From: a virus
Reading direction: 5' to 3' (one strand)
IMG/VR virus record: IMGVR_UViG_3300030098_003969
Location: 4,922-27,233 of that record
Length of the DNA: 22,312 nucleotides
Shown here: positions 9,790 to 14,558 of the stretch, piece by piece
Layout: each line of letters begins with the position of its first letter
Position numbering within the stretch: the stretch's first letter is position 1
Notes under the pieces: generated by a model
Seen by the model: the letters and a program-made list of their open reading frames with translations, nothing else
Database searches by the model: none
Told to the model about the DNA's origin: nothing
Translations under genes and position numbers: made by a program

Positions 9790-10001
9790 TGTTGGCGGTT
9801 TAGGGTCTAACGATTCGCCACCCTAATAATATCTGTTAGCTAACGCTATACAGATTCTTACATAAGGGAAGGACGACTTATTTAACCCTTAGCTCTTTTC
9901 CCAAAATCCATCGCGAAAAGCAAGATAACTCCTACTATAGCATAAGATTAGCATCATTGGGCCATATAGACCCTCCGCTATCCTACGCACACACACGAGG
10001 G
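9790..10001. ncRNA. Candidate structured RNA or control element in a 378-bp gene-free gap
   Basis: No credible ORF fills 9656-10033. Visible structure: GGCG 9794-9797 with CGCC 9816-9819, interleaved with TTAGGGT 9800-9806 and ACCCTAA 9820-9826, giving H-type pseudoknot topology; a ten-pair hairpin ATCTGT-TAGC/GCTA-(T)-ACAGAT at 9831-9855 with a TAAC loop and one bulge; TAAGGG 9863-9868 with CCCTTA 9886-9891; CTTTTC 9895-9900 with GAAAAG 9915-9920; CCCTC 9971-9975 with GAGGG 9997-10001. G+C is locally raised (about half in 9781-9840 and 9961-10020 by hand count). TATA boxes precede it on the plus strand. It could instead be a DNA control site. Confidence 0.4.
9881..9892. repeat. TTTAACCCTTAG element, copy 1
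   Basis: First of four identical 12-mers in the window. Here it lies inside the structured gap and its CCCTTA half can pair with TAAGGG at 9863-9868. Confidence 0.8.
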
Positions 10002-10033
10002 ATTTAAGGAACTACACATGAACTAAATGTATT

Positions 10034-12813: not shown

Positions 12814-12963
12814 ATGCCCAAATCCATTTTAAAGCTCGTAGGCGTATGGTGTATATATCCCCTTTATGATTGTATACAAATAGCACTTTGGACGCTTAAC
12901 GGCCGTTTAAATGCACGTTTTTGTTTTAGTATACAACCTCTAGTTGTTATCCTAAAAACCTAA
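12814..12963 (+). CDS. Possible 49-aa leaderless ORF in the control region
   Basis: An ATG at 12814 lies about 21 nt after CTATATAAAAGG and opens 49 codons: MPKSILKLVGVWCIYPLYDC, then IQIALWTLNGRLNARFCFSI and VVILKT. It is hydrophobic and runs through the palindromes into the repeat tract. An open frame of this length is not improbable by chance at this base composition, so this is a weak call. Confidence 0.22.
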   Translation: MPKSILKLVGVWCIYPLYDCIQIALWTLNGRLNARFCFSIQPLVVILKT

Positions 12964-13125
12964 AAACCAAAACTCCTAAAACTCCAAACCACCCAATTAA
13001 CCTAATCGCCTAAACAACCTAAATAACCTAAAAGACATTACAACCTAAAATACATTATGGCTTTTCGCCATTAATCTAAATCACCCAAATCTCCTAAAAA
13101 ACCTATTAGGTTATTTGCCCTAAAA
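12951..13125 (+). repeat. CCTAAA short direct repeats
   Basis: CCTAA occurs at 12951, 12959, 12975, 13001, 13009, 13018, 13027, 13044, 13093 and 13119, most steps being 8-9 or 16-17 bp. The tract has almost no G on the plus strand. Confidence 0.65.
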
Positions 13126-13142
13126 TACATAGGACATAGTTC

Positions 13143-13192
13143 TTATATAGACCCCTCGCCAATGTGTTATTGCTAGGAGTCCTTTATCCTAG
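13143..13192 (+). promoter_or_regulatory. TATA promoter of the plus cluster and 5' inverted repeat
   Basis: TTATATAG at 13143-13150 predicts initiation near 13172. CTAGGA (13173-13178) and TCCTAG (13187-13192) form an inverted repeat at the expected RNA 5' end and include the AGGAG sequence. It could act as an operator or as a hairpin masking a ribosome site. Confidence 0.55.
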
Positions 13193-13206
13193 TAGTGGTA
13201 ATACAC

Positions 13207-13543: not shown

Positions 13544-13544
13544 A

Positions 13545-13900
13545 CACCGGCTACCACAGGACTCCGGTCTTGTGGGGCCAAAGGTGACAACGAGGTTTTG
13601 CTTACCTCATGCAAACCCTATGGCTACAAGGGGTCACTAAACGGTAGCGGTGGTATGGTCTACCACTATCCTAAAACAGGCCACTCGGTTAGAGAAGATG
13701 AAAATAGCAAAATAATATTGCACTCTAACCACCTTACAGTCATACGCAAAAGAGACACGGTTTAAATCCGTTGAGGGAGGCATCCCAAATAGTTAAGTTA
13801 GGAGCTTGAGAGACAGGCAGTTCAAACGTAGAACTATAATATCCTGTGAAAAATCATTAGGCATAATGGCCTGTGACCTAATGCCCGATAGCAGATTAAC
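13545..13900 (+). ncRNA. Candidate structured RNA of about 350 nt, class unknown
   Basis: No protein gene fits. Helices on the plus strand: CCACAGGAC/GTCTTGTGG at 13554-13575 with a TCCG loop, extended by GGC/GCC; a three-way unit closed by GTGAC 13584-13588/GTCAC 13633-13637 enclosing GAGGT/ACCTC (13592-13608) and CCCT/AGGG (13616-13632); GTGGTA/TACCAC 13650-13666; GGTTAGAG 13687-13694/CTCTAACC 13723-13730 enclosing GCAA/TTGC; ACGG/CCGT 13757-13771; GGGA/TCCC 13775-13786; ACAGG/CCTGT with inner AGTTC/GAACT 13813-13847; CATTAGG/CCTAATG 13855-13883. G-T pairs that work only as plus-strand G-U favour this strand. Hand count gives 61 G+C in 120 at 13561-13680, well above the surroundings. It does not look to me like tRNA, RNase P or SRP RNA. 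Confidence 0.5.
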
Positions 13901-13925
13901 ACTTTTGCGCTGACACCTTACATTT

Positions 13926-13988
13926 ATGAATGAATATCAATTAAACCGCTACAGTTATATAGACTGTTCCCTATGGGAAATCCTATGA
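13926..13988 (+). pseudogene. 20-aa ORF repeating the start of the 14361 gene
   Basis: ATGAATGAATATCAATTA here recurs at 14361-14378, and ACCGCTACA resembles AACGCTACA further on. The product (MNEYQLNRYSYIDCSLWEIL) stops after 20 codons, and its TGA overlaps the ATG at 13985. It looks like a gene-start remnant from duplication, possibly kept as a leader coupled to the next gene. Confidence 0.45.
13955..13962 (+). promoter_or_regulatory. TATA box for the 13985 gene
   Basis: TTATATAG, identical to the box at 13143-13150 and again followed by AC. It is centred about 26 nt before the ATG at 13985. Confidence 0.5.
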
Positions 13989-14161
13989 GTTGGACAGACA
14001 AATTTAAACATTGTATGGCCTGTGAAGAGCCATCAGTATTTTGTAATTGCGAAGAGCCTGATTACTTTGAGGACAAATATAGATATCCATATGAGAAAGC
14101 TACAATAGATAATATCTCTAAGATTCTATGGGGAGATTCAAAATTTAAAAGAATGGAGTAA
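13985..14161 (+). CDS. 58-aa Cys-rich acidic protein
   Basis: I choose the ATG at 13985 (MSWTDKFKHCMACEEPSVFC) because it has TATA spacing for a leaderless start and an ATGA overlap; an ATG at 13973 would add four residues. CMAC and FCNCEEP give four or five Cys for a zinc site, then a Tyr/Asp-rich segment and a helix. Unknown function. Confidence 0.65.
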   Translation: MSWTDKFKHCMACEEPSVFCNCEEPDYFEDKYRYPYEKATIDNISKILWGDSKFKRME

Positions 14162-14163
14162 TT

Positions 14164-14364
14164 ATGAAAATTAAAAAACTAAGTGAAAAAGATTGGATGT
14201 TTAGACATTCATATAATCGTAATGAACCTACATGGAATCAATACCGAATACTTGATGTTGATGAGAATGGAGATTGTCATTTTTATAATTGGGCTTCTGA
14301 TTACAAATCCTTAGATTGGTTAAAAGAAATTGTTGGAGATATAGATGGGATGCAATCTTTATGA
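14164..14364 (+). CDS. 66-aa protein of unknown function
   Basis: Begins MKIKKLSEKDWMFRHSYNRN and continues with TWNQYRILDVDENGDCHFYN, beta-rich, then a short helix. GGAG lies six bases ahead of the ATG. The stop overlaps the next start as ATGA. Not recognised. Confidence 0.7.
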   Translation: MKIKKLSEKDWMFRHSYNRNEPTWNQYRILDVDENGDCHFYNWASDYKSLDWLKEIVGDIDGMQSL

Positions 14365-14558
14365 ATGAATATCAATTACAAATCAAACGCTACAAGCAAC
14401 TAAGAGAAATCTACTACGGAGATTCTGAAAATAAAGTAGTCCTTGAAGATTTAGAATTTAAATCTATGTTGATTCAACTTAAAAGAAGTATAATGACAAA
14501 ACGAAATCGAACAAACGAAAACCAAATCCTTTTTAAATCCGAATTTCCCAATGAATAA
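14361..14558 (+). CDS. 65-aa basic helical protein
   Basis: The start is set at 14361 (MNEYQLQIKRYKQLREIYYG) by the ATGA overlap; an upstream in-frame start would lie inside the previous gene. Further on are SMLIQLKRSIMTKRNRTNEN and a short tail. Predicted helical and basic. Its first 18 bases are duplicated at 13926. Last gene of the plus cluster. Confidence 0.7.
   Translation: MNEYQLQIKRYKQLREIYYGDSENKVVLEDLEFKSMLIQLKRSIMTKRNRTNENQILFKSEFPNE

Follow-up and report, generated by a model that had tools for sequence, protein, structure and literature searches.

Comparative sequence analysis points to a conserved, exchangeable RNA hairpin in a marine, plausibly archaeal, virus

Several structured RNAs of marine viruses are known from comparative genomics. 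These include manA RNA (RF01745), which has been proposed as a riboswitch candidate (PMC2864571), and orphan motifs such as wcaG, PhotoRC and other cyanophage motifs, which sit 5' of metabolic or photosynthesis genes (PMC2864571). Phages also encode the structured non-coding RNAs GOLLD and ROOL, which are often located near tRNA genes (PMC12286853). None of the papers that we searched describes arrays of structured RNAs from viruses that infect marine archaea. Here, we describe an array that probably belongs to such a virus, in a stretch of 22,312 nucleotides (referred to as the window), which corresponds to positions 4922-27233 of a virus record 27,233 bases long. A short motif in this array, module B, is likewise an orphan RNA motif of marine viruses, but it has no single class of downstream genes. 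manA RNA is found in the same arrays, directly upstream of B in four other contigs (contigs other than the window carry L numbers): L088 and L100, where it scores above the Rfam cut-off, and L101 and L117, where it falls below this cut-off with E-values of 4e-13 and 3e-14. B is, however, much smaller than manA RNA and has a different core. As for GOLLD and ROOL, some of the arrays adjoin a tRNA gene (tRNA-Glu), while their domains are far smaller, are joined as swappable modules and have TATA-type promoters. In agreement with the initial annotation, which assigned the region 13545-13900 to no known class, Rfam gave no match there; specifically, manA was not detected at its gathering score (55.2 bits) or at E-values up to 10, and the GOLLD and ROOL models matched neither the window nor the relatives searched. 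A search of isolated phages with the same region also gave no match.

The window encodes a terminase and a portal protein, and its genes lie mostly on the minus strand; the structured region belongs to a small plus-strand cluster at 13.2-14.6 kb. TATA-like boxes precede many gene starts, although the window has no excess of short TATA-like strings over shuffled sequence. The nearest annotated relatives of the terminase are those of the haloarchaeal viruses PhiH and PhiCh1 (~25% identity), and together with the TATA boxes this makes an archaeal host likely. The earlier attribution to an archaeal virus is thus plausible, the source apparently being a virus of marine archaea, with the host deduced from these features. 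An alignment of the terminase against cellular genome contigs, as a search for proviruses that might indicate the host, gave nothing, and ARAGORN detected no tRNA or tmRNA in the window. As annotated, the region lies downstream of a TATA promoter and directly follows a Cys-rich microprotein gene; the TATA box is 400 nt upstream, with two small ORFs in between (Table 1). Neither the 81-aa nor the 36-aa product matched Pfam or PHROG families. The leader between the TATA box and the first ORF is partly conserved in L003, L019, L087 and L098 (blastn). Upstream of the cluster, between divergent genes, 12930-13120 is AT-rich with many short CCTAAAA-type repeats, also in relatives, and is possibly a regulatory or replication region.

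Table 1. Coordinates of the features in and around the RNA array (window numbering)
Feature	Position	Strand	Remarks or basis
TATA box	13142..13149	+	sole one upstream of the RNA region on the plus strand; next at 13955
Leader hairpin (TGTGTTAT..CTAGGA/TCCTAG..AATACACA), TATA to first ORF	13163..13206	+	sequence
Small ORF, 81 aa	13207..13452	+	96% identical in L003
Cys-rich small ORF, 36 aa	13433..13543	+	ORF list
Module A	13545..13684	+	cUCCGg tetraloop hairpin, three-way domain GGUGAC..GUCAC, 3' hairpin GUGGUA/UACCAC
Module A, first hairpin (cUCCGg tetraloop)	13545-13587	+	compensatory changes in relatives
Module B, new RNA motif	13686..13731	+	stem 13687-13694/13723-13730
Module B, near-invariant core GATGAAAATAGCAAAATAATATTGC, 25 nt	13697..13721	+	copies compared
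Linker CACCTTACA after B	13730..13738	+	in relatives, similar linkers behind other RNA modules
Module C, closed multi-hairpin domain	13739..13913	+	closing helix GUCA..CGCAAAAG / CUUUUGCG..UGAC
Second linker copy CACCTTACATTT, array end	13914..13925	+	sequence
21-nt direct repeat TTTATGAATGAATATCAATTA, copy 1	13923..13943	+	copy 2 at 14358-14378

The initial annotation regarded 13545-13900 as one plus-strand RNA of about 350 nt. A plus-strand RNA with structure conserved in relatives was indeed found for the first hairpin of A and for module B, though not for C, and the region proved to be composite, with three modules (A, B and C) of differing histories placed end to end. The structure also extends further than proposed, to ~13925. 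The folding energy of 13545-13900 on the plus strand (-108.8 kcal/mol, z -3.25, equalled by 1 of 100 shuffles) gives weak support for structure, and the minus strand has a z of -2.55. Since a scan of the whole window in 150-nt segments (mean z -0.44, sd 1.22, first percentile -3.55) places the region merely among the lowest few percent, energy by itself is weak evidence, and we rejected it as proof of a structured RNA because similarly low values occur elsewhere in the window. The reported rise in G+C is present (0.508 over 13561-13680 vs 0.374 for the whole window) and is reached by 0.9% of 120-nt segments. The reported absence of an ORF is correct in that no frame is open in all relatives, but the window itself has one open frame (13544-13765), which is closed in four relatives.

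Full-length module A (z -3.39 on its own) is present in the window and in L003, L019/L089, L087 and L098, while its first hairpin occurs without the remainder in L028/L086 and L014/L103. The five full copies carry indels, and since they have no reading frame in common, a protein-coding explanation for A-B was ruled out. Across six distinct sequences of the first hairpin, 98% of the cells pair and three pairs have changed on both sides, a number matched by 2 of 500 shuffles. This hairpin has 13 G-U and 0 A-C cells, which favours the plus strand as the RNA, as had been argued from G-U pairs; that argument does not carry over to module B, whose 3 G-U and 5 A-C pairs give no strand signal. The remainder of A fits the GGUGAC/GUCAC pairing in 5 of 5 copies, and fits the alternative long pairing CACC-GCUAC/GUAGC-GGUG equally.

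The core of module B follows the pattern GATGA[A/T]AATAGCAAAATA[A/G]TATTGC. This pattern retrieved 21 stretches and looser patterns added five contigs, which with the window gives 30 nearly invariant copies on ~27 virus contigs. Only positions 6 (A or T) and 19 (G or A) vary in real members. When the constancy of the core was tested by a search in which the seven bases of the apical loop were fully free, real members kept AATARTA and other viruses gave chance matches alone. Outside the core, two types can be distinguished. In type I, the first strand of a stem of 5-8 pairs is followed by RA and the core, and a single base then leads to the second strand. In type II (L084, L088, L102, L113, L117, L119, L129 and L133), GGGGAAC and a hairpin whose loop is TATCGAC precede GACCTAAARA, the core, N and ACCC. 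Here two more stems covary, namely the outer one and that of the hairpin, with one A-C mismatch in L119. In the B stem, 7 of 8 pairs have changed on both sides (35 such cells vs 10.1 in shuffles), and the covariation score is 0.490 vs 0.148 in shuffles. The expected covariation among relatives was accordingly seen in B and in the first hairpin of A, both of which combine compensatory changes with the lack of a conserved frame. Comparative evidence thus identifies both as conserved RNA structures and A-B as non-coding.

A covariance model of B recovered the copies with no other match in 544 kb, and found one copy in the window's own genome. The core had no match in 84,980 species genomes, so that a cellular origin was rejected, and in isolated phages it gave only partial chance matches. 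Two assignments to known kinds of element were also rejected. Although GAUGA of B resembles a C box, the box C/D model RF00353 scored 22.6 bits at 13687-13730 (gathering score 45; E 3.5), and the conserved core has no D box (CUGA). An integron-like recombination site was rejected as well, since the required core sequences are missing in most B stems.

To compare contexts, we used the corresponding slots of terminase relatives (L003/L055, L019, L028, L014 and L008). Blastn between relatives showed a modular slot in which A and B are common and the sequence after B varies; L087 and L098, retrieved by the B pattern, keep the A-B order. B follows A in the window family, manA RNA in the four contigs mentioned above, another RNA in L028 and L095, and a 22-aa ORF in many contigs. 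At position 9504 of L094, B stands directly behind a TATA box without an ORF and is followed by a non-coding body. L090 has the same RNA body, with a hairpin E (GTTTCAGGGGCCGAATCCCGAC on its stem) in the place of B. B and E are exchangeable, since the two contigs share the body and differ in the hairpin at the identical place. From these comparisons, B emerges as an exchangeable hairpin: its core stays nearly constant, and its stem and neighbours change freely. Hairpin E, as a module with the constant core TTTCAGGGGCCGAATCCCGA on varied stems, was seen in L090 (3037), L092, L082 and L093.

Other RNAs recur in these arrays. A larger RNA containing GCCTGACAAG and GGCGAAGG is shared near B by L082, L084, L088, L090, L092, L094, L102 and others; it occurs in the downstream flanks of up to 13 of 29 B copies, and had no match in Rfam. 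A relative of the L008 slot RNA in L047 has a TATA box of its own in front and a T-run behind, with another promoter next, and for this reason looks like a stand-alone RNA gene. By eye, the hairpins of the L008 and L047 RNAs look compensated; the slot RNAs of L008, L019 and L028 did not fold clearly better than shuffles. AGGCAG is present in each of the otherwise unalignable slot RNAs (L003, L008, L019, L028 and, at 13815, the window), its significance being estimated by hand.

Our preferred reading, to which we give about an even chance (probability roughly 0.5) on the sequence evidence, is that a viral transcript driven by the TATA box has the array as its non-coding tail, and that B, an exchangeable hairpin of viral non-coding RNAs, serves recognition and probably acts in trans on a conserved host factor. 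The transcript would end in an array of separately folding RNA domains, in which B would serve as an address by which a variety of non-coding viral RNAs (here A and C, elsewhere others) dock on one conserved host partner, in the simplest case the ribosome or an RNA-binding protein. During infection these RNAs would act in trans; the linker CACCTTAYA may be a single-stranded joint or a processing site. A shared recognition tag is suggested by the nearly unchanged core of B beside many different partner RNAs, and the strong covariation, the almost frozen core and the restriction to virus contigs imply that something conserved must read B. No complement to the core was clearly enriched near the copies, so that B probably finds its partner outside its own RNA. 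That partner RNAs are swapped among relatives would fit an arms race or host-specific tuning. More tentatively, and with less confidence than in the reading above, marine and probably archaeal viruses may possess hypervariable arrays whose non-coding RNAs act in trans and are assembled from interchangeable domains, B being the universal docking tag for one conserved host factor; this would constitute an undescribed modular RNA effector system. B is in any case a clear new RNA motif, known from virus contigs only, and its partner, if identified, would reveal a host process that these viruses attack or borrow. Hairpins swapped on one body and bodies swapped behind one hairpin also provide a natural design for dissecting the roles of the domains.

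The main rival to B as a recognition tag is regulation in cis, in which the modules are leaders or intercistronic controls of small ORFs, A hides a Shine-Dalgarno sequence, and B plays the part, suggested for manA, of an aptamer or expression platform. We consider this possible but rather unlikely. A cis role is suggested by the position of the window-family array between ORFs and by B lying immediately upstream of an ORF start in L098 and L028. In L014 and L028, moreover, a small ORF begins behind the first hairpin of A, which itself comes after a stop codon, and AAAGGUGA in the last strand of that hairpin immediately precedes the start; manA is itself a riboswitch candidate, and type II B looks like an aptamer. 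The conserved, covarying helices of B would suit a riboswitch aptamer, but its gene context is inconsistent: most copies precede another non-coding stretch and no one gene class, in L094 a promoter precedes B and a non-coding body follows it, and an apparent inserted cassette with its own promoter severs the ORF that comes after the window's array.

Alternatively, B and the linker might mark cleavage sites or protective 5' or 3' ends without any role in trans. This would agree with B being located where modules adjoin and, in one case, where a transcript starts, and with the CACCTTAYA-type linkers behind several modules in relatives. We nevertheless regard it as improbable, because a near-invariant core of 25 nt exceeds what a stability stem needs and no known processing motif was recognised. 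Still less credible is selection for translation of a pentapeptide from the core, which reads ATG AAA ATA GCA AAA TAR. The variable core positions do preserve the start and the stop (TAA in the window, TAG in other copies), but third codon positions before the stop are unchanged in 30 copies, bases past the stop are equally conserved, and type II copies have no upstream Shine-Dalgarno site. Structure that arose by chance, or a DNA-level feature (a site of recombination or replication, for instance), is a reading that equally low folding energies elsewhere in the window and module swapping between relatives would permit. It can practically be dismissed given the compensatory changes in B and in A's first hairpin, and given that A, read on the plus strand, has G-U pairs but no A-C mismatches.

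Module C yielded no homologues by blastn over the loci of relatives or by an exact 19-base pattern. Without a relative, its predicted structure depends on energy alone (z -3.19 for the module by itself), and C is a candidate structured RNA. Just behind the array, the 21-nt direct repeats bound a segment of ~414 bases, which contains two ORFs and a separate TATA box (13955), and 13923-14378 has the appearance of a cassette inserted at the start of a small gene. Elsewhere in the window, a second intergenic structured RNA was observed on the minus strand at 9790-10025, with a z of -5.27 that is stronger than that of 13545-13900. It has homologues in L003, L004, L008, L014, L016, L019, L020, L028 and L087, and by eye its hairpin strands are compensated (GGG..CCC vs GGA..TCC).
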